From Nothopassalora personata (taxonomy: Eukaryota; Ascomycota; Dothideomycetes; Mycosphaerellales; Mycosphaerellaceae): a stretch of 64,000 nucleotides of DNA. Location: NCBI GenBank assembly GCA_033816765.1, contig CM066289.1, positions 1,798,001 to 1,862,000 of the forward strand. The letters are read 5' to 3'. Positions 12,890 to 26,074 of the stretch are shown here, in pieces; the first letter of the stretch is position 1, and each line of letters opens with the position of its first letter. The notes under the pieces were generated by a model. That model made no database searches. It was not told the DNA's origin and saw nothing but the letters and a program-made list of their open reading frames with translations. Both the position numbers and the translations under genes were made by a program.

Positions 12890-12962
12890 GTGCTCCTCTG
12901 CCTATTTAAATTGGAACCTGAATCGTCATCGAAGCTCTATTAAGGATCAGCTTGCCTTGCTA

Positions 12963-14790
12963 ACGTGTTTGATAAGCATGTGAATCAGATAGGCATGTGC
13001 ATCAACTTCTATCTCGTATCTACCACCACTACTAAACGCGTCCATTATTCCACCATTCTACGCGATGGCACCTCCAAACGAAGAGTGTATTTAGAATGCT
13101 GTTCGCGATTACCTGTTAGGTCGTTTTCTAAGCGTGCGACGCGCTGTAGCCGCCTACGGAGTCAAATATTCTACCGTTAACCGCAGACTCTATAGTACGG
13201 CTCTAAAGACTAGTACACCGCTAACGAACAGAGCCTTAACTCCGGTTAAAGAGGAGGTAGTTTATTAGAAGATTCTAGACCTAGATTCACGTGGTTACTC
13301 GCCAACACAGGCTATAATTAGAAGCTAGGCGTCCTTAATAACCAAGGCACGGAATGGACAAGAAGTTGGCTAAAGATAGGCTTATAACTTTGTCAATCGT
13401 TATCTAGGCTTAGAAACAAGGCTATTACGGAGGTTATTAAGCCAAAGGGCAAAGAATAAGGACCTAGAGGTTATCTTAGAGTAGTTTAGGCTCGTTCACA
13501 ATATAATAGCCTTCTATGGAATTATACAATACGACATTTACAACTTTAACGAGAGTGGATTTAGGCTTAGACATAGTAAGAATACTAGGGTTGTAACTGC
13601 TATAGAGCGTAGGCAACGACCTAAGGCCTTGGTTTCTAATTTAACGCAGTGGCATACTGTTATTGCCTATGTTAATGTAGAAGGCTAGTTAGTGCCTCTA
13701 TATATTATCTTCTCTAGCAAGGAAATAAACAGAGCCTAGTTCAAACACCTACTAACAAACTAGAGGCTTAGAGTTAGTCCTAAAGGCTAGACTTCCTATA
13801 ACTATAGAATAGTATAGATTTAGCACTTTAGTAACTATACTAAGCATAGAACTATTGGTTAGAAGAGGCTCTTAATTCTAGATGGCTATAACAGCTATAT
13901 AACACTAGAGTTTAAGTTATTCTATAAGGAACAAGGTATTATTACCCTCTATATGCCTACACACTCTTCTTATTTATTACAGCCTTTAGATGTTAGCTGT
14001 TTTAGTCTATTAAAGAAGGCATATTTAGCTAGAATCTAAAGGCTTAGTATAGTTAGATACCACTTCTTAATTAAGGAAGACTTCTTACTATAACTTAGGC
14101 CTGCCTATAAGGCTGCATTTACTTCTTAGAACATTAAGGCAGCCTTTAGAGGCTTAGATTTATTGCTATTAGATCTAGAGGCTATGTTATCTAAGCTAAC
14201 ACTACGTTACAAAACACTAACTCCACTACTACCTTGTTTATTAGACACGTAGAATACCCCTTAGAATCTAAGGTAGGTTAAGAGGCAAACAAGTAAGATT
14301 AAGGCTAGGGTTGTGAATTATTAGAATAGCTTACTAACTTCAATCCTTAAGGCAGTAGATAGGTTGTTAAGAGGGTTTAAAAGGTCATAGGCTGCTATAA
14401 CATTACTCTAGGCTAAACATAATAATATAAAGACTATAATTGAAGAATTACAGTCTTATAGGGCACTAAGGAAGAAAATCAAGCTTACTCTTAGACTTAA
14501 CACTAATGAATTAGCTGCTAGAGACATAGCTTAGTTATAGGCTTAAATAGTAATAGAGTTAGTTAGTTAGATTAAGAAACAGCTAAGAGCTAAACTAACC
14601 TACAGCAAGTATAGTATACAAGGACACAACTCAAGAGGTTATCTATTAGATAGAGTAACTTCTAAGCATTTAATTGATCTATCTTTAAGGTAGTTCTAAC
14701 ACCTATAGCATAAGATATCAAGAATTAAAGTTATCCACCTCGTAAAGTTAATGCACATGCCTATCTAATTTACATGCTTATTAAACACGT
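12963..14790 (+). mobile_element. pogo/Fot1-type DNA transposon, RIP-damaged, complete ends
   Basis: 1828 bp with 44-bp inverted repeats at 12963-13006 and 14747-14790. The left begins ACGTGTTTGATAAGCATG and the right is its inverse with only transition changes. TA duplications stand at 12961-12962 and 14791-14792. The size, TIR length and TA target fit the Fot1/pogo group of Tc1/mariner elements. It is inserted in the leader/gag region of copia A. Confidence 0.92.
13065..14699 (+). pseudogene. pogo-type transposase, inactivated
   Basis: One frame of 545 codons reads through many TAG stops without needing a frameshift. The N-terminus has a psq-type helix-turn-helix (RRAVAAYGVKYSTVNRRL). The DDE region is recognisable (NFNESGF where NFDETGF is usual, LDGYNSYITLEF, then PTHSSYLLQPLDV). 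The missing Asp in NFN is explained by G-to-A change. No active product is expected. Confidence 0.85.
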
Positions 14791-15174
14791 TAGTGGACTC
14801 GACCCTACATTTGTTTCACGGACAACTACCTAATCGATTTAAGAACTACTGCAGGAGATCGGCACTAAGCACTAGTACCGTAGTACAGCATCTAAAAGAG
14901 CTGGACTAGAGAAGGATCTAGTTAGATACGTGATCCATAATCTGGACTAGGTTGACCTAAAGTACGCTCTAAACAGGGCAGCTTATAATTAACCCTAAGA
15001 TACAACTAAGAATGTCTAAGATAAGACTGCCTAGAATGAAGCCCCTTAGGACATTACTAGTAGTACAGGATACAAAGCTGCCTATAAGCGATAGAAGAAA
15101 GAGGACATATAAGCATATAGCATTATTATAGCTAGATTGGATTCTACCCTAAGGCTAAACTTTAGAGATATAGA
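14791..15174 (+). pseudogene. Copia A piece: start of gag
   Basis: Sequence of element A between the pogo element and N1. Stop-riddled by TAG codons. No intact frame. Confidence 0.6.
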
Positions 15175-15493
15175 TGTTAGGAACCGCTGTACGTTATCCC
15201 AACTGGGCTTGGATCTTTGCAGTGATGTCTCTGACTCGTTGAGAAGGTAGTGGTTCCAAACAGTATATGGTGTATACTTGAAATGAGTTGAGCACGAGGC
15301 TCCTATCTACTTGCAAAAGAGCGTCGTCTATATAGTGCCGTGTCTTGGCGTGATCTTTCCTGCTCTCTCTGCTCTCTCTGCTCTCTCGAGAGAGCACCCG
15401 AGAGCACTGAGAGCACTCTGCATATCGGGTGCATCCGCTGGTCTGCTGGCATCGATTGGTTGGCTACGGGCTTCCCCAGACCGATCCGTAACA
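15175..15493 (-). repeat. 3' LTR of N1
   Basis: 319 bp, TG...CA ends, contains a TATATA box and a run of CTCTCTG/GAGAGCA inverted motifs. Same family as the N2 LTRs and the solo LTR at 26075, but an evidently different subfamily. Confidence 0.9.
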
Positions 15494-15511
15494 CCATCCC
15501 CCTTCTAGCCT

Positions 15512-15528
15512 AGCTTCGTCCCGAAGCT
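15512..15528. promoter_or_regulatory. Perfect inverted repeat upstream of the N1 antisense gene
   Basis: AGCTTCG-TCC-CGAAGCT: 7-bp arms, 3-nt spacer, 38 bases before the antisense ATG and next to the 3' LTR. The identical palindrome occurs in N2 (45759-45775) at the corresponding place although neighbouring sequence has diverged. Confidence 0.5.
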
Positions 15529-15566
15529 TACAAGATGTCATTCCTTTCCAACTTTGTCATCCAACG

Positions 15567-16206
15567 ATGTCTTCTTCTTCCCTTTCCCTTCCCGTCACCA
15601 AAACCAGTACGCATCGTCGCAAGAAGCTTGCCAAGTTCATTCGAGAGAACGGGATTACTATGGTCAAGTCGTGCTCTTTCTGCACTCGTGAGAAAAAGGT
15701 GTGCCGTGTCCACATCAAATCGGGCCGCTGTTCGGAGTGCAACGAACACAACATCAAGGGTTGTGACGTGCGAGTCACTCCTGCTGAGTGGAAGTCCCTT
15801 CAGTCCGTACGGGACAAGCTCACCCGTGAGCTTGAAGCGGTCCGTCATGATCTCGTTCGCAAGAGTGAAGAGATCGCGGCAGCCTATGCGAAGGAGGCGC
15901 GTCTTCGTCGTCAGCTTGAGCTGCACGAAAAGCGCGAGGGCGAGGCGATCGCTGTCGAGGAGGCGAGCATCCAAGTGTTAGAACAAGGGGAGCTCGAGGC
16001 CGCTCCGCCTTCCATCCCGGAAGACTGGTGGTTTCCTGCCTCCGATCCTTCGGTCTTCGACCCTAGCTTGTCCTTGGATGGGAATCTCCTCCTTCCTGAA
16101 TCCTTCTCGGAGTTGGTCTCGTCGTAAGTTCGTCCTTTATCTGTTTTCCGTGTCGTAGTGTTGACTTCTGTGTCCTAGGTCATCAAATCAAGAAGCCGCT
16201 GTTTGA
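15567..16206 (+). CDS. Antisense cargo gene of N1: Zn(II)2Cys6-like cluster plus coiled coil
   Basis: Unspliced it is 186 codons (15567-16127). A good 55-nt intron (donor GTAAGT at 16124, branch TTGAC, acceptor CCTAG at 16178) would splice to a short exon 16179-16206 ending in TGA (about 194 aa). Residues ~33-63 are CSFC-TREKKV-C-RVHIKSGR-C-SE-C-NEHNIKG-C. The spacing CX2CX6CX8CX2CX7C falls inside the Zn(II)2Cys6 fungal binuclear cluster pattern. A heptad-rich, Lys/Arg/Glu-rich helix follows (~75-130), then an acidic/hydrophobic C-terminus that could be an activation region (inference). It lies opposite to gag, between gag and the 3' LTR. The homologue in N2 keeps every cysteine. Confidence 0.7.
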
Positions 16207-16231
16207 TGCCTTTATCGTCAGGTCGTTTCTG

Positions 16232-17224
16232 CTAGGCAGATTTCGAGAGAAAGCTCTCGCATTCCTGGTATGCATTCTCTTCGCGAATCATCGCGTTGAA
16301 CTCGCGGCTAACTATGTTCTTTTTCTTGCAGTTCCTTGCATAATGGCCTTGCTCGCCACATACGTAGCAGGTGGAACCTTTGCTCTTCAGCCCCCTTCCT
16401 GTCCTACGTTCCGTTACGTCCAATTCCATTGGGTCTCCGTAACCATTAGGGTCCTGACTTCTGGCCTTGAAGCCCCCTCTTCCGCCCGCGGCGGGTCTCT
16501 GGTATCCAGGCTGTACGTGTCGGTCGTACCTCAACTCCTGGAGCCTTTCGTCGATCTCCTTTGCTGCCTTGATCATCGCCCCTAGCGTAACGACGCTGGC
16601 GTTTCGGGATAGTTCGGCTTTGACGTTGTCTTTCAGCCCGAGGTAGAACTGCGATCGCAAAGCTGCGTCGTTCCATTCCAGGTCGGCGGCATATCCTTGG
16701 AATTCTGAGGCGTACAGCGCTACAGAAGTAGTCTGTCGAAGTTGTCGGATATGTCGGTCGGCGTATACCTCCTCATTTGGTATCCCGTATAGATCATCGA
16801 GTTTCATCTCAAACTCGTCGTAGTCGTGGAAAATTTTTCGAGTTTCCGTTTTCGGTGTTTCTCCCTCGCCCTGGTTGTGTAGCCAGTCCTTGAGGTATGG
16901 TCGGAATCCTCTAGCTGCTTTTCCTCGTAGGAAGGATGCGGCGTACAAGACTTTAGAAGCCTCGCCTTGAAACTGGTGTGCGTTGAAGTGAAGGTACAAC
17001 TGAACCTGCAGTTGAAAAGCCTCCAGTTTGTCCTTGGTCCCGTCGAACGTCTCCGGCGTAGACACCTTAGGTGCACGGTGGTGGTCCAATGGGTTCAGCA
17101 TACCCATAGGAGTGTTGTTGTTCTTGCTGCTTCCTGTAATCGACATTTCGCTCATTCGTTCCGTGATGCCAGTTGACTGTGGCTGTTGTCGTGACGGACT
17201 CCGGGTAGCGTCTCTCCCAGACAT
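16232..17224 (-). CDS. Gag protein of N1
   Basis: 330 aa from the ATG at 17224. Ty3/gypsy-type Gag: capsid-like region with TPETFDGTKDKLEAFQLQV and YLHFNAHQFQGEASKVLYAA, then a nucleocapsid zinc knuckle CYVCGEQGHYARNC (CX2CX4HX4C). It packages element RNA into virus-like particles. Nearly identical to the N2 Gag; I find one substitution (Met vs Thr in DEFE-M/T-KLDDL). Intact, so possibly expressed. Confidence 0.88.
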   Translation of the reverse strand: MSGRDATRSPSRQQPQSTGITERMSEMSITGSSKNNNTPMGMLNPLDHHRAPKVSTPETFDGTKDKLEAFQLQVQLYLHFNAHQFQGEASKVLYAASFLRGKAARGFRPYLKDWLHNQGEGETPKTETRKIFHDYDEFEMKLDDLYGIPNEEVYADRHIRQLRQTTSVALYASEFQGYAADLEWNDAALRSQFYLGLKDNVKAELSRNASVVTLGAMIKAAKEIDERLQELRYDRHVQPGYQRPAAGGRGGFKARSQDPNGYGDPMELDVTERRTGRGLKSKGSTCYVCGEQGHYARNCKKKNIVSREFNAMIREENAYQECESFLSKSA

Positions 17225-17256
17225 ATGCAAAGGGCCCTGGTGGTGGTGCTCAAAGT

Positions 17257-17575
17257 TGTTAGGAACCGCTGTACGTTATCCCAACTGGGCTTGGATCTTT
17301 GCAGTGATGTCTCTGACTCGTTGAGAAGGTAGTGGTTCCAAACAGTATATGGTGTATACTTGAAATGAGTTGAGCACGAGGCTCCTATCTACTTGCAAAA
17401 GAGCGTCGTCTATATAGTGCCGTGTCTTGGCGTGATCTTTCCTGCTCTCTCTGCTCTCTCTGCTCTCTCGAGAGAGCACCCGAGAGCACTGAGAGCACTC
17501 TGCATATCGGGTGCATCCGCTGGTCTGCTGGCATCGATTGGTTGGCTACGGGCTTCCCCAGACCGATCCGTAACA
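17257..17575 (-). repeat. 5' LTR of N1
   Basis: 319 bp. On the minus strand the body begins AACTTTGAGCACC just after it. TTGAGCAC there is complementary to GTGCTCAA inside the LTR, downstream of its TATA box, which suggests self-priming. Confidence 0.9.
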
Positions 17576-18042
17576 ATAGACAAGTTAGCTAAGGAATTGT
17601 ATAATTTAATTAAGGCAACATACAAGCTAGTTATTACAATTAATCTATATAACACTCTAAAGGCAGTTAGGCACATTAAACTAGATGCTACAAGACCTAA
17701 TACATTAAAGTACTATAAAGACTTTTAATCATAGGTAAATAACAATAAGACTGCTATAGAGCAATTTATTAGATCTTCCCTAGTTAATAACAAGTTAGGG
17801 CTTAAATCCTTTTTTGTCCTCCTAGATAGCATCTATAGATTGTACTTTATTAAAGGTCTAAACTATATCGAATGGCTTAGGACATAGAGATATAACAATC
17901 CCCTAGAATTAACTACCCTAGAGAGAATGTTTATAACTCTTAGGAAGGAGCAAGTACCTACTACCTACAAGCCTAGCAATAGCTTTGTTAGAGCATTCTT
18001 AAGTAAGAATAATAATAAGCAGTGCATATAGTACTTATATAA
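17576..18042 (+). pseudogene. Copia A piece: gag
   Basis: Continues the gag of element A up to the start of its zinc knuckle. Mostly open (KLAKELYNLIKATYKLV; FVLLDSIYRLYFIKGLNYIE) with TAG stops. Confidence 0.7.
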
Positions 18043-18200
18043 TGTCACGGGTGAACGACGTGTACACTGAGGTTCTGTGTGGTATGCAATAAGTTCGATA
18101 CAGAAGAAGGAGAAAACCGAGCGAAGCCCGGAACAAAGAAAACGGAGTCAGGTCCGCACGGGCTCAGCCCGTGCCAAGATGCAAGGGCTCGCCCCTTACA
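18043..18200 (-). repeat. 3' LTR of G1
   Basis: 158 bp, ends TGTCACGG and CCCCTTACA on the plus strand. Contains a perfect inverted repeat GCACGGGC-TCA-GCCCGTGC (18156-18174). Confidence 0.92.
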
Positions 18201-18654
18201 TTACCCCCCCTCTCCCCTCCGCCGCCTGCAGCGTCTCCTCCGCCTGCTTGTTGTCGCCGTCGAAGGCCGTGCCTTCATTGTCGGGTCCCGCCGTCGCTGT
18301 GTTGTGGTATTGTTGCCTAGGTGAGTGTGAGGTTTCGTATTGTTACCCATGTGACAATGGCTATTGTCACATGTGAACAATAGGACTCCAGAATATATCT
18401 ACCGGATAGCTTCCTCTTTTTTTTTACCCTTTTTTTTTTTGCTCGGCAACCATTAAGCGAATGTATGTGAACACACCCCTTGACAGCACCCTCCCTCCTC
18501 TTCCTCCACTAGCCCTATCACCTCCGCCCCTCTCTACGATCCCCTTCGCCCTCGATCCGATTCCTTCTCGCCGCGCTCCGACAGAAACTAACCGGATTCC
18601 AGCACCAACAACACAACAGCCTCCAAACACCACATCTTCAATCAATACCATCAA

Positions 18655-19339
18655 GTAAGTCCGATTCTTTTGAGCCGGCCTCCGATGCTTTTTAACTGGT
18701 TTCCAGCAGAAAACATGCTCTACCACTGCCTGGAGTGCGCCAACTCTGGCCGCGATTGCGTGGGCCCTGCCGTAAGACGCCTGAGTCCGACGTTTTCCAG
18801 CCGGACTCCGCTCACAAACATCCGCAGGCCGCCACTCAAGTCCGCAGCTGCGACGAGTGCCGCCGCCTTCAGAAGCGCTGCCGCCCGCTGTGAGTCGCTC
18901 TCCGACCCCTTTCGACCGGACTCCGCTAACCCCCCACAGCCCAGCACTCTGCCACAAGGCGTACGCGGCCTGGACCCGTGCCGGCAACGCTTCCAAGGCG
19001 TAAGTCTCCGGCCTGCGATCGTTTTCCGTCGGCTAACGCCTGAAAAGCACCAAACTCGACAATCTCAAGAAGGTTATCAAGGCTTGGCGCCCACTCTCCA
19101 AGCTCGAGTCCGATGGTCTGCTGTCCGGGTAATTTCCACCGGTCTCCGATTGAAAACCATCGCTAACCGTCTCTCAGTCCTGTGGCTGCTCAGGTCACTG
19201 GCTCCATGGAGGGAGCCATCAACGCGCAAGCTGGCTCGTAAGTGTTGCACCCCGATTGAAAGACGTCGCTGACCGATCATTTTCCAGCGGCCCCGTCCCT
19301 CCTGCCCTCCGCCTTGGCACCCGCCGCGACATGTCTTGA
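18655..19339 (+). CDS. Antisense cargo gene of G1: spliced, Zn(II)2Cys6-like cysteine cluster
   Basis: Coding exons 18715-18771, 18828-18889, 18940-18999, 19048-19128, 19178-19237 and 19288-19339 (372 nt, 123 aa). The five introns are 48-56 nt, all GT-AG with GCTAAC/GCTGAC/GCTCAC branch sites, and every phase agrees. A 5' UTR intron (18655-18709) fits as well. Cysteines are C5, C8, C15, C27, C30 and C37 (HCLECANSGRDC, then SCDECRRLQKRC). The spacing CX2CX6CX11CX2CX6C is inside the Zn(II)2Cys6 range; CDECRRLQKRC resembles the basic half of Gal4-type clusters. A basic helical stretch (TKLDNLKKVIKAWRPL) follows. Being antisense to the element RNA, its introns survive retrotransposition. The function is unknown; DNA or RNA binding is inference. 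Confidence 0.72.
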
Positions 19340-19562
19340 GTGGTCTCCGGTGGTTTTCGCGCGGGCCGCGGTCGGGCCATCACAATGCTTTTGCCATCCC
19401 CGTATGGGGTGGGCCGGCCTCCGCTTCTTTTTGGTCGGGCCCCGCTGCCTTTTGGCGGCATGAATGAATGAAATTCTTTAAAACTTTTTCCTTTTCTCAC
19501 GTGCTCTCAATCTGACTCCTGCTCCCAAACGCCTGTGCTCATGTCAACTGACCCGCAATCCG

Positions 19563-22500
19563 TCACTTACCTGTCGCCCTGCCCTTCTTCTTGACTTCCC
19601 ATGCTTGCCTTGGTCCATCGTGCGTCATCGGGTTGCCGTGCTTTTTCTCAAAGTCGTCTGCTGCAGCTGTGTCCGCTAGATACTCCAATGGTTCCCACGT
19701 AGGCTTGTGGTATCCAGTCCATTTCACTAGGACTTCGCGTGCTTTGCCCCTCCCTTTCGCCTTGGTTCTGGCGCAGAGAATCTCCTCTACATGCCATTCC
19801 TCATGAGATTCAATGAGGATGGGGTCCGGCTGTTTGTCGTCGATCTCCTGTCCAGGCAACGGGTCTTGGCTTGCAGGTCGCAACAAGTCTGGGTGAAAGA
19901 CCGGGTGGATTCCATCGGGGATCCCTGACAATCGGATGGACAGCGGTGAGATGACCTCCGCCACCGTGTACTTTGCGTGCTTATGGTCGATACTCTTCTT
20001 CGGCCGGGTCGTAGTGTAGTTCCTTAGATCCAGCCACACCTTGTCACCGACCCGATAAATCGGCGCTGGCTTCCGATCTTTGTTGGCGCTCTCCTCTTGC
20101 TCCTGGGCGGAGTCCGCCATGCTCGCTTGGCACAGGTCCGTGATCTGCTGCATCCTTTCCACAAAGAGCGTTGCCCGTTTGGCGGCATCCAGCGACGAAG
20201 TCGTTGAGTCCGGCTGCAACTGGACGGGGAATGGCGCTTCGTAACCGTGGACGGCAAAGAAGGGGCTCATGCCTAGGCCCGCTTGGTACCGTCCGTTCAG
20301 CGCCAGCTGAGCGGTGGAGAGCCACTTTTTCCAATCGGACTGCTCGTGGTTGACATAATTCCGAAGGTACGCCTGCACTTCTTGGTTCAACCTCTCGGGC
20401 CCTCCGTCCGTTTGTGGGTGGTAGGCGGAGCTAAGTCTCTGCTTCACGCCGGTTAAACGACAGAATGTCTTCCAGAATGTGCTTGTCCAGTTCGTGCCTC
20501 TATCGCTCGTGATGGCCTTAGGAATCCCGTAGTATCTCACCCAGCAGTCCAGGAATCTCTCGGCGCAGTCCTCCGCTTTCATGGTGGACATCGCTTCCAA
20601 GACGACGGTCTTGCTCAGTCTGTCCTTGATTACCCACAAGCAAGTGTTTCCCTGCGACTCCGGCATGTCCGTCATGAAATCCATAGAGATCTCCTGGAAG
20701 AAACGATCGGGTACCGGTAAAGGCTGAAGGAGTCCATGCTTTTGCTCCCTCCATACCTTATTTCTCCCACAGTGATCGCAGTTCCTCAAGAACTGTCTCA
20801 CGTGCCTTGACTGTAGAGGCCAGTAAAAGTTACGTCTCAAGATAGACGCTGTGGAGTCCCTGCCTGGATGGCCGTAGACCGGTGAATCATGAACGGACTG
20901 GATGAGCTTCGTCCGCAGGACATCGTTCTGCAATATCTCCGCGCCCGCCTCTTTGTAGTCGGCTTCCGTCGTTGCTGGGGCTCCCGGCACCCAGATTCTT
21001 CCGCGGTGCCGCAGGTGTCCGTTGTCGTCGATGCTGCAGTCACCGGCTTGTACCTTGAGCTTCACTTCGCTCGGGAGTGAACGCGCCCCGGTTCTTACTG
21101 CGTGGAGTACTGCCTGAAACGTGCTGTCTTCATCGGCGGTCTTCCTCCAGATCTCGTTCAATTCTGGATCTGTGAAGGGGCCCGATGATGCGCCCGGTGA
21201 GTCCGACGTTTTCTCGGTGGAGTCGACTCCGAATTGGGTGGCCATAATCTGGACCGATGAAACCATCGTAGCGGATGAAGGTGCATCTGCTACCACCTCG
21301 CCTTCCCCCCCTGGAGCCGGCCAATTGCGTATGGCATCCGGCCGCAAGAACCTGCGAAAACGCGACAATTTGTCGTCCTGGCCGAGCGTATCCTGCTCCC
21401 TCCGTGACAATGCATCCGGCACAATTGCCTCGGCGCCCGGCCTGTATACCAGGGTAAACTGAAACAACGCGATGTGCTCCACCCACCTGATCTGCCTCTC
21501 AGACAACTGCCTCTTTGTCATAAAGTACTCAAGGTTCTTGTGGTCCGTCCAAATTGTAAAGGGACCACACGTTTTCAGCTCGGGGGCCCACTCTTTGAGG
21601 CAGGAGACTACTGCGAGCATCTCTTTGTCATGGATGTCGTAGTTAATCTCAGCCTTATTCAGTTTCTTTGAGTAGAACCCTACCGGCTTCACTACCCCGT
21701 CCTTTTCTTGCAGGAGAGCGCCACCCAGGGCAAATCCACTGCAGTCCGTCTCCAAAAAGGTGGGAAGCTCCGGGTTCCAATGGGCCAGCACAGGAGCTTC
21801 ACAGTACTTCCTCTTCAGGGCCTGAAAGGCGTCCTCCTGACGTTTCCCCCAGGAGAACGGCGTTTTCTTTCCCGTCAGCGACGTCAAGGGTTCGGCCAAC
21901 TTCGAGTAGTTGGGGATGAACATTCTGTAGTAATTCGCGAACCCGAGGAAACGACGCACTTCTTTCTGAGTGACGGGCGTCTTCCAGTCCCGTACGGCAT
22001 CCACCTTTTCCGGGTCTGGTCCCACCCCCTTTCCGTCGGCGTGGACGATGAACCCTAGGTACTTGATCTTCTTCTGTGCGAACTCGCATTTACCTGGATC
22101 TAAGAACAGGCCTCCGTCCCAAAGCTTATGGAGAACGATGCGAACCTTCTTGAAGTGGTCCTCCTTCGACCCATCCGAGTAGATCACTACGTCATCAGCG
22201 TATGCAGAGGCGAAGTCGTCCAGGTGTTCCCGCAGCAAACTGTTAATATACCGTTGGAAAGTTGCCGGCGCCCCGGACAAACCAAACGGACACACCAACC
22301 ACTCCCACAGGCCAAATCTCGTTCTAAACGCGGTCTTGTACTCCTCGCCTCTTGCCATCCGGAGATGGTGGAACGCGGCAACTACGTCCACCTTCGTCAT
22401 CCATCTGGCTCCCGTTAGATTTCGGATGGTCTCCGGGATCAAAGGCAGCGGGTAGCGATCTTGCTTCGTAATCGCGTTCAGCGCCCTATAATCGCAGCAA

Positions 22501-24542
22501 AAGCGTAGTCCTCCTCCGGGCTTCTTCACAAACAGGACGGGGGCCGCCGCTTCTGAGGTGGAGGGACGGATGTATCCCTTGCGATGCAGCTCGGTTAGCG
22601 ACTTGCGTAGCACCAGCAGCTCGTCTTTCGACATGCTATACAACGGTCCCCAGGGCAGTGGCTCCTGCGATCCGTCTGGTTTCGTCCGGATCTCGATCCT
22701 GTGGTCAAGTTCCCCACGATGGGGCGCGAGCTTGTCGGCTTCCCGCGTGGAAAAGAGTGGGATCATGTCCCAAAGTTCCGGAGGCAGCTTCATTTTGAGC
22801 TCCTCCCTCGTGGGCGGTTCCTTCTTGCTCAGGGCTTTCTTGATGTCCTCCACGGTTGCCGCGGCGATCGTAGCAAAACGTTCGCCCGCCTCGCGTTCTT
22901 TATGGTTGCGTCCTTCGGGCACCCATTTCTTTGCCAAACCGTGGTAGTACCGGTGCTTTTCTGGCGCAGTTCGGATTTGATTGTGCGCTTTCCAAGGGTT
23001 CCCCAGAATCATCGGGAAGTCCAAGTCGGGCACGACGTATGCGTACACGACCTCGTGGATGCCGGCGATTTCCATGTGGAAAGCAACTACTCCTTCAATC
23101 GAGTTTCGCATCGCTTTGGTGAACCCTGTAGCCTTGCGGCTCTCGTTGCTGACATACGTGAGACCGAGTCCTTTCGCTAGGTCTCCGTTAATTACAGCAT
23201 AACACATGCATCCTTCATCGATAAGGGCAAACGTGCCGTAACTTTCGTTCAGGAGTAAGTCGGTATATACAAGGTTCCCGTTCATAGAACTCTTGGCAGC
23301 GTTCCACCCCTTTACCAGTGCTTCTTTGTCTCCTGGTGCTGGCTTTCGCCCAGGAGCTAGTCTTTTCCCAAACCCGTCGTCTTCCAGGATCGGCGCAACT
23401 GAGGCTGCGTTGATCTTGGTGGGGTTGACTGCTGCGGCGTACGGACATTCCTTCACTCGATGCCCGCTCGCTCCGCAACGGAAACAGAGCTGTTCTTGGC
23501 GCCTTCGATCTCTCTCAGCGGTGTCGACCCATTTCGCTCTCTGCTTCCCCTTGTCCTCCTTCCGGTCTCCACGACTTCTAGAGCGGCCTCCGTTCGTTCG
23601 GGTTGGTGCCATGATGGTGTCACCATCATGGTCCACCCGGGTAACGGTAGGTCCCGCAAAAGAACGAGTGGTAACCGTGGTGGTCGCACTGGAGTCCTTG
23701 TTGTTGTCCTTCCACTTCTTGTGGGCTATTCTAAACTGGTCTGTGTCCTCGAGGTTGGTCATGATCCGCTTAACCTCCTCTGCGAACTCGTAGTAATCCT
23801 CCTTTTTCGGCATGGCTGCCGTATACATTCTGGCGGGATTCGAGAAGGTGTTGCGGAGGTAGCCGATCTTCGCGTCATTGCTCCAGTCTTCTCCGCCGGC
23901 GGTCAACAGGAGTCCGTCGAATTTCATCTGGTGATCGTGCCACGGTTGTCCGTTCACGTGTCTAATCTTGGTGAGTTGTTCTAGAGCCTTGGCGCGTTCA
24001 TTGCTATCGCCAAAGACCTTTTCGAGTTGCGCAAAGAAAGCAACGGGGTCCTTCCCAAGTTCACCGTCTCCCTTGTCCCAGAAGTGCCGCATCCTCGTGC
24101 GCTCCCTCGCTAGCAACGTGTCGTTGATCGCGTCCCAGTAGAATTCATTGGAGAGCGTCGGTTTCAGTGCGGAACGCACCCTGAAGGAACTTTTCAACCT
24201 TAGGAAGTAGTCCCTGAATGTTTCGGCTTTGCCATCCCATGAGGGCGGGTTCCAGCCTCTGGGACCCGACGGTTCTCCGCCGCTGCGCGGCGCGTTCGCG
24301 GCGGCATTCAGCGTCTGCAGCAACTGTCTCATTAGGTCACCAGTAGACGCGTCGTCCGGAACTGGTAGTGAGACTGCAGGGGTTGACTGACGTCGAGCGT
24401 CTTCCGACTCTTTCAAGGCGGCGCGCGTTGCAATCAGTTCGGCCTGCATCTCTTCCTGTCGCTGGTACAATTGCTCGAGCATAAGCTGAAAATTTTCATT
24501 CGAGGCACCAACCCCGGGGTTCTCGCTACCCGACGACGCCAT
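19563..24542 (-). CDS. G1 Gag-Pol polyprotein with chromodomain
   Basis: One uninterrupted frame of 1659 codons. Gag, then zinc knuckle CFRCGASGHRVKEC (~354); retropepsin-like segment ALIDEGCMCYAV (~440, DEG instead of the usual DS/TG); reverse transcriptase with FASAYADDVVIYSD (~780); RNase H (LETDCSGFALGGALL). Integrase follows with an H2C2 zinc segment (HPGRDS...NCDHCGRNK) and the core (SMDFMTDMPES; ITSDRGTNWTS; YHPQTDGGPERLNQEV). A chromodomain ends it (WHVEEIL ... VLVKWTGYHKPTWEPLEYL, ~1580-1640), which in this clade guides integration to methylated-histone chromatin. Gag and Pol are fused, so unlike G2/G3 no recoding is needed. It appears intact. Confidence 0.95.
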   Translation of the reverse strand: MASSGSENPGVGASNENFQLMLEQLYQRQEEMQAELIATRAALKESEDARRQSTPAVSLPVPDDASTGDLMRQLLQTLNAAANAPRSGGEPSGPRGWNPPSWDGKAETFRDYFLRLKSSFRVRSALKPTLSNEFYWDAINDTLLARERTRMRHFWDKGDGELGKDPVAFFAQLEKVFGDSNERAKALEQLTKIRHVNGQPWHDHQMKFDGLLLTAGGEDWSNDAKIGYLRNTFSNPARMYTAAMPKKEDYYEFAEEVKRIMTNLEDTDQFRIAHKKWKDNNKDSSATTTVTTRSFAGPTVTRVDHDGDTIMAPTRTNGGRSRSRGDRKEDKGKQRAKWVDTAERDRRRQEQLCFRCGASGHRVKECPYAAAVNPTKINAASVAPILEDDGFGKRLAPGRKPAPGDKEALVKGWNAAKSSMNGNLVYTDLLLNESYGTFALIDEGCMCYAVINGDLAKGLGLTYVSNESRKATGFTKAMRNSIEGVVAFHMEIAGIHEVVYAYVVPDLDFPMILGNPWKAHNQIRTAPEKHRYYHGLAKKWVPEGRNHKEREAGERFATIAAATVEDIKKALSKKEPPTREELKMKLPPELWDMIPLFSTREADKLAPHRGELDHRIEIRTKPDGSQEPLPWGPLYSMSKDELLVLRKSLTELHRKGYIRPSTSEAAAPVLFVKKPGGGLRFCCDYRALNAITKQDRYPLPLIPETIRNLTGARWMTKVDVVAAFHHLRMARGEEYKTAFRTRFGLWEWLVCPFGLSGAPATFQRYINSLLREHLDDFASAYADDVVIYSDGSKEDHFKKVRIVLHKLWDGGLFLDPGKCEFAQKKIKYLGFIVHADGKGVGPDPEKVDAVRDWKTPVTQKEVRRFLGFANYYRMFIPNYSKLAEPLTSLTGKKTPFSWGKRQEDAFQALKRKYCEAPVLAHWNPELPTFLETDCSGFALGGALLQEKDGVVKPVGFYSKKLNKAEINYDIHDKEMLAVVSCLKEWAPELKTCGPFTIWTDHKNLEYFMTKRQLSERQIRWVEHIALFQFTLVYRPGAEAIVPDALSRREQDTLGQDDKLSRFRRFLRPDAIRNWPAPGGEGEVVADAPSSATMVSSVQIMATQFGVDSTEKTSDSPGASSGPFTDPELNEIWRKTADEDSTFQAVLHAVRTGARSLPSEVKLKVQAGDCSIDDNGHLRHRGRIWVPGAPATTEADYKEAGAEILQNDVLRTKLIQSVHDSPVYGHPGRDSTASILRRNFYWPLQSRHVRQFLRNCDHCGRNKVWREQKHGLLQPLPVPDRFFQEISMDFMTDMPESQGNTCLWVIKDRLSKTVVLEAMSTMKAEDCAERFLDCWVRYYGIPKAITSDRGTNWTSTFWKTFCRLTGVKQRLSSAYHPQTDGGPERLNQEVQAYLRNYVNHEQSDWKKWLSTAQLALNGRYQAGLGMSPFFAVHGYEAPFPVQLQPDSTTSSLDAAKRATLFVERMQQITDLCQASMADSAQEQEESANKDRKPAPIYRVGDKVWLDLRNYTTTRPKKSIDHKHAKYTVAEVISPLSIRLSGIPDGIHPVFHPDLLRPASQDPLPGQEIDDKQPDPILIESHEEWHVEEILCARTKAKGRGKAREVLVKWTGYHKPTWEPLEYLADTAAADDFEKKHGNPMTHDGPRQAWEVKKKGRATGK

Positions 24543-24600
24543 CACGTATTCCGTCTCTTTAATGGCGGGTGCCTGGTTGATTCGAATGGATCGAACTTAA

Positions 24601-24758
24601 TGTCACGGGTGAACGACGTGTACACTGAGGTTCTGTGTGGTATGCAATAAGTTCGATACAGAAGAAGGAGAAAACCGAGCGAAGCCCGGAACAAAGAAAA
24701 CGGAGTCAGGTCCGCACGGGCTCAGCCCGTGCCAAGATGCAAGGGCTCGCCCCTTACA
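24601..24758 (-). repeat. 5' LTR of G1
   Basis: 158 bp, no difference seen from the 3' copy. Confidence 0.92.
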
Positions 24759-26074
24759 TATAAGTACACTAACGCGAACTGCTATAAGTAGCATCTAGAG
24801 AAGAATCCTAGGAATAGGTCTAAGAAGGGTAAAGACACCCTAAAGGATAGGGTAAAGAAGGTAAAGGGCAGCAAATTCCCTAGGAAGAGGATTACTATAG
24901 TAATTAATAACTAGTTAGACTTATTATCTAATTAGGAGTATAGCTCTAATAGTAATAGGGACTAGAGATAACTATATAGGAGGTCTAGAGTAGCTGTTAT
25001 AGTTACATAACTAGTGTGTATAGGAAGGATAGTAGCTACCGTATTAAACCTAATGTTAATAGACAAAGTCTATAACATAGGCACATCCTTCTATATCTGC
25101 AATAATCTTATAGACCTTTAGAATGTTAGGCTAAGACTAAGGCCTACATGCTTCTTATAGGCCGTTAGGCAAGGATCTCTTACGACTAAAGGAGAATTAG
25201 AGTAGGTTATAAAGAACTATCTTAGCTAAGAGACTACCCTCCTCCTTCGCAATGTGCTTTACTTACTAGAGTTAGATACGACACTAATCTCTATAGAACT
25301 CCTATATAAGAAACATAGAGTTTACCTAGATAGACTATCTAAAATGCTATTCTAGAAGGATAAGCCGGTAGGCTTAGTTAAGATAATAAAAAATGTTATT
25401 GTCTTTAGGAACCTTAGGGTAAAGAGGGGTTCTAGGAAGGATAAAGACAGATTAGCACTAAAAGGACTTACTACTCTTATATTTACTAAGCTAAGAACTA
25501 ACATAGTTAGATAGTATTAAAGGCTTAGGCATATTAGGAGCATACTACTTAATGCTACAAAAGAAGTAGTTAAGGGCCTAGAAGATGTTAATACTATAGA
25601 GTTAGGACACTGTAAGACTTATAAGCTTATAAGGTTATAAAGAGTTGTTTTAAGAATCCCTAGGAGACCTGCACTAGAGGCATTAGATAAAATCTATACT
25701 AACCTAGTTAGTCTAATTACTCTACTCTCTTATAATAGTTACGCATATTGCCTTATGCTTACGTGTACTAAAACTAGGATAAGATAGTGCTTACCACTTC
25801 TAAAGAAAAGTAATGCTCTAATAGCAATTAAGACTTAGCTTACTATAATGTAGAACTACTATAAGAAGAAACCTAAGATCTAGTTCTTAGATAGTAGTAG
25901 GGAATTTAACAACATTGAACTTAGAATACATACCTAATATAAAGGAATTAGATAGGATTTTGCATTACTATACATACCTAAGTAGAATAGAATTGCTAAA
26001 GCTTCGAACAAAGTTATTATTAATAAGGCTAGAGCTATACTTGTGGACTCTAGCTTACTATAGAACCTCTAGCC
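24759..26074 (+). pseudogene. Copia A piece: knuckle, protease region and integrase
   Basis: Continues the A frame: basic linker (RNRSKKGKDTLKDRVKKVKG), protease/gag-pre-integrase region and the integrase core (ALEALDKIYTNLVSL ... SYAYCLMLTCTKTR). TAG stops throughout. Confidence 0.75.

Follow-up and report, generated by a model that had tools for sequence, protein, structure and literature searches.

Organization of the locus

The window, a stretch of 64,000 nucleotides from the genome of Nothopassalora personata (G000:C3:1798001-1862000), contains a complete Ty3/gypsy retrotransposon, here designated G1, and a smaller neighbouring element, E2 (Table 1). The single open gag-pol frame of G1 encodes reverse transcriptase (RT), RNase H, integrase and a chromodomain in gypsy order, which identifies the element as a chromovirus. 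The LTRs of G1 are enclosed in an exact repeat of 162 bp (18040-18201 and 24598-24759). A search of viral and prokaryote genome contigs with a piece of the G1 RT found no relatives. Next to the 5' LTR (24585-24650), the sequence AATGGATCGAACTTAA pairs, by eye, with part of the LTR. Tf1/sushi-type elements are self-primed through pairing of this sort.

A putative spliced gene (18655-19339, plus strand) lies in the interval that separates pol from the 3' LTR and is read in the direction opposite to gag-pol. Its presence had been proposed in a sequence-only reading of the window, and the position and orientation were confirmed.

Table 1. Features of elements E2 and G1 in the window. GT and AG counts refer to the donor and acceptor of each intron in 16 copies of a diverged sister family. 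TSD, target site duplication.
Feature	Position	Strand	Basis or remarks
E2, non-autonomous gypsy element (gag only)	15175-17575	gag on -	identical LTRs 15175-15493 and 17257-17575; TSD ATAGA
E2 antisense ORF, CX2CX6CX8CX2CX6C and coiled-coil	15567-16127	+	ORF list, model; possible 3' intron 16124-16178
E2 gag frame, stop to stop	16232-17275	-	domain search
G1, chromovirus (Ty3/gypsy)	18043-24758	-	complete element; TSD TATAA
TSD of G1, TATAA	18038-18042 and 24759-24763		sequence flanking both LTRs
3' LTR of G1, 158 bp, TG...CA	18043-18200	-	exact repeat; limits set by TSD
Leader intron, 52 nt	18655-18706	+	GT...AG; sister copies GT 15/16, AG 16/16
Exon 1, start codon and first CX2CX6C	18715-18771	+	splice model and sister family
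Intron 1, 56 nt, phase 0	18772-18827	+	GT...AG; sister copies GT 6/16, AG 16/16
Exon 2, second CX2CX6C	18828-18889	+	splice model and sister family
Intron 2, 50 nt, phase 2	18890-18939	+	acceptor lost in 11/18 G1 copies; sister copies GT 13/16, AG 15/16
Exon 3	18940-18999	+	splice model and sister family
Intron 3, 48 nt, phase 2	19000-19047	+	sister copies GT 15/16, AG 16/16
Exon 4	19048-19128	+	splice model and sister family
Intron 4, 49 nt, phase 2	19129-19177	+	sister copies GT 16/16, AG 15/16
Exon 5	19178-19237	+	splice model and sister family
Intron 5, 50 nt, phase 2	19238-19287	+	sister copies GT 15/16, AG 16/16
Exon 6 with stop codon	19288-19339	+	splice model and sister family
gag-pol of G1, single open frame (CCHC, RT, RNase H, integrase, chromodomain), stop to stop	19563-24596	-	ORF list and domain search
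5' LTR of G1, identical to the 3' LTR	24601-24758	-	exact repeat; TSD

Structure of the antisense gene

The splice model was rebuilt and gave one leader and five coding introns (48-56 nt), all bounded by GT and AG, and a frame of 123 codons plus stop, as had been read before. The phases of the five coding introns are 0, 2, 2, 2 and 2, and the six exons measure 57, 62, 60, 81, 60 and 52 nt, respectively. The cysteine spacing given earlier for the 123-aa product, CX2CX6CX11CX2CX6C, was recovered in the spliced translation. Branch-site motifs had been claimed for all introns; by eye, CTAAC/CTGAC-like motifs are present in introns 2-5, whereas the motif of the leader intron is weaker (TTTAAC) and that of intron 1 is poor. 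Other acceptors for intron 2 also give open products of 89-164 codons, in other frames, and the evidence for the gene from a single sequence is therefore weak.

Five pairs among the six introns (18655-19287) resemble each other at z 3-5, and the exons are not alike. Introner-like introns were considered and rejected: the core of intron 2, used alone as query, occurs at 18 places with three or fewer mismatches, and these are the 18 copies of G1.

Conservation in a diverged sister family

The 54.5-Mb genome that contains the window was searched with the RT-RNase H region of G1. At least 17 near-identical copies of G1 and at least 98 older copies were detected (115 of 2393 candidates scored); the older copies show 74-85% protein identity with the query and carry many TAG stops. 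The 3' ends were fetched for 20 of the older matches, and a homologous antisense region is whole in 16 of them (15 distinct sequences). Among the remaining four, L042 is partial, L023 and L030 match near pol only, and L024 is a G1 copy with mutations, to which the antisense region of copy L018, some kilobases off, probably belongs. A weak protein match on C7 (L022, 25%) showed no nucleotide match to the 3' part of G1.

The copies of this sister family are mutated in the manner of RIP. They contain six exons and six introns as in G1, and the intron positions, the phases and the positions of the six cysteines recur. The exons of sister copy L025 measure 66, 59, 60, 84, 54 and 52 nt and differ from those of G1 by +9, -3, 0, +3, -6 and 0 nt, all multiples of three; the length differences of introns 1-5 are not divisible by three. 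All twelve splice sites are kept in five of the 16 sister copies. The weakest site is the donor of intron 1, where the copies without GT carry a G-to-A change, and L027 has lost most of exon 5 together with the preceding acceptor. In-frame stops over the gene in the sister family comprise 129 TAG, 14 TAA and zero TGA. The codons of the six cluster cysteines read TGC, TAC or TAT in all 16 copies, none of which has TGC at all six; a change from TGC to TAC is a G-to-A change of the RIP type. The same signature is found in the mutated G1 copy L018, in which C-to-T and G-to-A changes make up 110 of the 136 substitutions relative to L004; CpA is the context of 94 of these changes. The cysteine positions of the sister family are spaced CX2CX6CX10CX2CX6C, with a middle spacer of X10 rather than the X11 of G1, and an additional cysteine in exon 3 of G1 is absent from the family.

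An unguided six-frame comparison of G1 with the sister family was ambiguous, because nucleotide homology raises several frames, and an exon-anchored comparison was used in its place. The spliced frame of G1 scored 180 against L025 at the protein level and the other five frames 25-93; permuting the substitutions gave 58 +/- 22 with a maximum of 126 (500 permutations), and relative to residue shuffles the spliced-frame score reaches z 15. Three of the four sister copies tested exceed all of their 500 permutations, namely L025, L027 (100, null maximum 94) and L032 (135, null maximum 119), whereas L038, the most mutated of the four, scored 110, just under its maximum of 112. Since the splice structure, the frame and the cysteines are shared with a diverged family, the gene is more than chance, and the sequence comparison makes it very probable that a real spliced protein gene belongs to element G1.

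State of the antisense gene in the G1 copies

The following counts rest on 18 aligned G1 copies; a nineteenth match of 45 nt on C7 was excluded. The antisense gene is undamaged in five copies (L001-L004 and L015) and damaged in 13, of which 11 have lost the intron-2 acceptor, one (L005) carries a nonsense codon and one (L018) is mutated by RIP. Ten of the acceptor losses are due to a common 1-nt deletion, and L016 has a separate 10-nt deletion at the same site. L017, which belongs to the ten, contains further indels in the exons. The next intron-2 acceptors available to the acceptor-less copies lie downstream and shift the frame. The six-cysteine pattern of exons 1-2 is whole in 16 of the 18 copies.

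To judge by their target site duplications (GTATC, TCCAC, TTCGC, TAAAG and ATATC), the ten acceptor-less copies represent at least five insertions, and the two LTRs are identical in nine of them (all but L017). Six of the ten, L009-L013 and L017, lie at G000:C1:5714969-5775357 with the single duplication ATATC, three on each strand and at spacings of about 5.4 and 10.8 kb; they are a segmental or inverted array derived from one insertion. Because the acceptor-less lineage has inserted at least five times, the full-length protein is not needed in cis, and damaged copies could receive help in trans from intact ones. Four of the copies with an intact gene are flanked by a 5-bp duplication, and the 5' end of the fifth, L004, was not found in the piece that was fetched. 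The antisense gene is damaged in nine of the 11 copies that have the full gag-pol frame of 1677 codons. The RT-containing frame has 1274 codons in L003, L004, L007, L014 and L015 and 1383 in L017, which means that some G1 copies have an interrupted or split gag-pol as well.

Frame-breaking indels in the exons of other G1 copies had been named beforehand, together with missing plus-strand spliced reads, as observations that would speak against the gene. The damage in 13 of 18 copies bears this out in part. The proposed comparison of synonymous and nonsynonymous changes gave 11 nonsynonymous to two synonymous changes over 17 copies, compared with 2.96:1 expected for an unconstrained sequence, and gives no sign of present constraint. 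This excess, the origin of the damage in at least four separate events and the spread of the acceptor-less lineage with its mostly identical LTR pairs would all suit a formerly useful accessory gene, one that was of use to the ancestor shared by G1 and the sister family and is now dispensable and drifting in the present burst. Such decay is considered rather unlikely, given that the cysteine module has stayed whole in nearly all copies, that the five intact copies could serve the damaged ones in trans, and that the events are few and the power of the comparison correspondingly low.

Rate and mode of evolution

Between G1 and L025, pN is 0.42 and pS 0.56 in the antisense gene, compared with 0.106 and 0.70 in the adjacent piece of pol (uncorrected values, stop codons excluded). 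In the other three sister copies, pN/pS is 0.70-0.74 for the antisense gene and 0.18-0.19 for the pol piece. Nonsynonymous change in the antisense gene is thus three to four times that in pol. RIP makes no transversions, and these were counted separately between G1 and three sister copies. Transversions per site amount to 0.08-0.09 in the LTR, 0.12-0.18 in the flanks, 0.22-0.31 in the gene block and 0.04-0.11 in pol, except for its last window (0.18). By this measure the G1 LTR does not follow the divergence of the antisense gene. Transversions in the antisense gene are spread evenly over the codon positions (39, 37 and 39), which speaks against strong constraint. The exons are no better kept than the introns (205 of 343 and 189 of 288 aligned sites identical between G1 and L025, respectively), and since the introns have diverged as much as the exons, the whole block is old or has been exchanged, beyond the codons alone.

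The equal conservation of exons and introns at the nucleotide level would also be expected if the antisense RNA were the functional product, for example by pairing with the sense RNA and lowering expression, and the protein were incidental; noncoding antisense transcripts have been reviewed for retroviruses (PMC10186651). This explanation is improbable, because it does not account for the conservation of frame, phase and cysteines. A self-restraint factor controlling copy number, whose loss lets a lineage spread, would fit the predominance of the broken lineage (10 of 18 copies) and its repeated insertion, and the antisense proteins HBZ and APH are described as lowering viral LTR activity or replication (PMC10186651). 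It is judged slightly more improbable still: the five copies with an intact gene, four of them with a target site duplication, do not tie spread clearly to loss, and six of the ten broken copies form one array with one duplication. That the gene is a product of chance in a GC-rich stretch where GT-AG pairs and open frames come easily, as the open products from other intron-2 acceptors might suggest, is very improbable, since a diverged family conserves the cysteines, the positions and phases of the introns and the lengths of the exons modulo three.

Zinc-cluster-like character of the product

Proteins of the Zn(II)2Cys6 type (PF00172) are defined by the spacing CX2CX6CX5-12CX2CX6-8C. The earlier description of the product as carrying a Zn(II)2Cys6-like cluster holds as regards the spacing, which falls within this definition and is conserved in the sister family, but not as regards the Pfam model. 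The proposed HMM search with the 123-aa product matched no Pfam family at E<=1, Zn_clus included. The product is therefore classed as cluster-like only, on its spacing and the conservation of that spacing. If the gene is accepted, it is likely, from the sequence pattern, that the module is a metal-binding cluster. The arrangement CX2CX6C...CX2CX6C is common to the product and to fungal Zn(II)2Cys6 transcription factors (PF00172; Gal4, Hap1, Leu3 and Put3), from which it differs in having no Pfam match, whereas the E2 class described below matches weakly. No homologue of the product was found at E<=10 among 5.8 billion proteins (155 candidates), and a profile search of the PDB with the G1 family gave one irrelevant match (E 1.1). 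When profiles of the G1 family and the E2 class were compared across the cluster, the result (E 0.012, probability 3.7%) did not establish kinship.

Element E2 and its class of antisense genes

E2 is inserted in AT-rich, TAG-rich sequence (12944-15170 and 17580-18037), which looks, by eye, like a RIP-mutated older transposon. The antisense ORF of E2 is present in 32 near-identical copies in the genome, five of which have an internal TAG. An E2-like gene was found antisense to gag or pol and beside the LTR in all eight fetched loci, which represent five families by sequence. In an alignment of 12 proteins of this class, only the six cysteines and a single leucine are invariant. Zn_clus is matched at E<=1 by six of 12 and five of 14 members (best E 0.064), and the first member of each set falls below the cut-off.

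The predicted structure of the E2 class contains a long helix after the cluster, as in Zn(II)2Cys6 factors. A Foldseek search with the E2 model gave 21 weak matches, 20 of which we take, partly by title, to be Zn2Cys6 proteins. The E2 protein folded without an alignment (mean pLDDT 69.7) had two matches, neither of them significant; one was the zinc-cluster protein PPR1 (E 7.5). In a profile search of the PDB with the E2 class, a non-zinc protein ranked first (E 0.0021), followed by LAC9 (0.0053), LEU3 (0.092) and GAL4 (1.4) among coiled coils.

Linked exchange of the antisense gene and U3

Two autonomous elements, L060 and L064, show 98.6% identity on the gag-pol side (5312 nt) and 99% on the U5 side of their LTRs, but they differ in U3, and identity between their antisense proteins is 38%. 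Likewise, the non-autonomous elements E2, L061 and L063 share 99.2-99.8% of gag over 982-983 nt, and their antisense proteins are 40-42% identical. Copies with the E2 gag backbone were surveyed further (237 candidates, 40 scored, 20 typed). Eleven of the typed copies belong to the E2 type (two with an early stop), two are L061-like, four are L079-like, and L080, L084 and L073 represent one each; L073 has a U3 of the L079 type without a recognisable antisense gene.

Between representatives of the types, identity is 0.92-0.99 on the gag side and 0.91-1.00 on the U5 side, except for 0.60 in the five pairs with L080. Identity between types falls to 0.52-0.70 in U3 (the same-type pair L079/L073, at 0.99, excluded) and to 0.53-0.66 in the antisense segment (pairs with L073 excluded on account of its short segment), both close to 0.57, the baseline that shuffling gave for the antisense segment. 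In 13 within-type pairs, U3 and the antisense segment are identical at 0.99-1.00 and the U5 and gag sides at 0.94-1.00. The antisense gene and U3 thus change together between elements with 92-99% identity on the gag or gag-pol side (L060, L064, E2, L061, L063 and L067-L086).

The ordinary explanation is that the antisense gene and U3 move together when the template is switched once, close to the 3' end of pol or gag. Recombination in bursts is already described (PMC5668417). Since a single switch suffices, the linkage is no proof that the protein acts on U3. The many unlike cassettes on one backbone suggest that change there is tolerated or favoured. A more specific reading is that the antisense zinc-cluster genes of fungal gypsy elements supply the specificity of a control cassette that can be exchanged. 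Each protein would act on its own U3, and lineages would swap the linked pair while gag-pol remains constant, in analogy to the exchange of repressor and operator among temperate phages. G1 would then represent a variant rich in introns, whose gene block was replaced or diverged fast and whose LTR stayed. This reading is tentative and, on balance, doubtful.

Relation to known antisense genes of LTR elements

Antisense genes in the interval between pol and the 3' LTR are a known kind. An additional antisense gene of Boty-like retrotransposons in Botrytis cinerea, brtn, was reportedly described by Zhao et al. in 2011 (Virology 417:248). The G1 gene has the position that defines the brtn and aORF-3R kind, namely the pol-3' LTR interval on the opposite strand. 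These genes are also present in most copies of a family; the corresponding region occurs in 18 G1 copies, undamaged in five, and is whole in 16 of the 20 older 3' ends. The brtn gene of Boty is cited as an antisense additional gene in several texts (PMC7264820, PMC8365987, PMC4227169, PMC5987419). As with the G1 gene, its host is presented as a chromodomain Ty3/gypsy element with one gag-pol gene, in which it lies antisense between pol and the 3' LTR (PMC7264820, PMC4227169). The name brtn-106 (PMC4227169) suggests a small product. G1 differs in its six introns and C6 pattern, and the likeness to BRTN is positional and by description only.

The aORF-3R genes of plant gypsy elements (Grande, RIRE2, and Retand with TRP28) have the same place and strand as the G1 gene and are described in most copies of their families (PMC11963269, PMC7264820). 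The Grande antisense protein is given as nuclear and TRP28 of Retand as predicted to bind DNA (PMC11963269, PMC7264820). The proteins are of families other than that of G1, and the word "intron" is absent from the main text of PMC11963269. Section 5 of PMC7264820 gives the function of this kind of gene as unknown.

Retroviral counterparts are HBZ of HTLV-1 and APH. They are reviewed as antisense, spliced genes driven from the 3' LTR that encode regulatory proteins, nuclear in the case of HBZ (PMC10186651). HBZ is a bZIP protein of an infectious retrovirus and not a zinc-cluster protein, and the likeness is one of working, not of kinship. Among the papers listed in literature searches that covered few subscription journals, none concerned, by its title or the first lines of its abstract, a fungal gypsy element with an antisense zinc-cluster gene that is spliced. 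What is new in the present finding is the conserved arrangement of several introns, together with the cysteine pattern.

Proposed role of the antisense gene

The best overall explanation, which we hold to be probable, is that the antisense gene is a genuine accessory gene of G1 with a spliced mRNA, a trans-acting, DNA-binding regulator being the likeliest role of its product. Transcription would run opposite to gag-pol, from beside the 3' LTR toward the 3' end of pol, and the antisense mRNA would be spliced six times. The introns would be readable as such only in the antisense RNA; they would remain unspliced in the sense genomic RNA and so survive retrotransposition. Antisense orientation had been offered earlier as the explanation for the persistence of introns in the element, and the occurrence of all six introns in the diverged sister family fits it. 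Translation would yield the 123-aa protein, with the six-cysteine module in its first third, at spacings that resemble those of binuclear zinc clusters in fungi. This product may be a nuclear, DNA-binding regulator of element expression that acts in trans, in the manner of the antisense proteins HBZ and those of Grande and Retand.

The regulatory role is favoured by the cysteine module, the resemblance of the E2 class to zinc-cluster activators, the place of the gene beside U3, and the precedents of HBZ and the plant antisense proteins. For regulation of the element's own LTR, as suggested earlier, the closest support is indirect and comes from E2 and its relatives, in which a comparable antisense gene varies jointly with U3. 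The role is weakened by the absence of a Pfam match, the loss of the gene in many copies, an LTR that has not diverged along with the gene in G1, and the lack of an established kinship between the G1 and E2 products. Weighing these points, and taking the gene as given, we rate regulation of LTR or element transcription by its product as a candidate role with somewhat less than an even chance.

Elements of plants and fungi, as well as retroviruses, repeatedly have an additional antisense gene close to the 3' LTR. In G1, where such a gene combines a recognisable six-cysteine module with introns that are conserved and a counterpart in a sister family, binding of the product to the element's own LTR becomes a testable question. 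Elements with 98-99% identical gag or gag-pol but a different U3 and antisense gene constitute a natural experiment on element-specific regulation.
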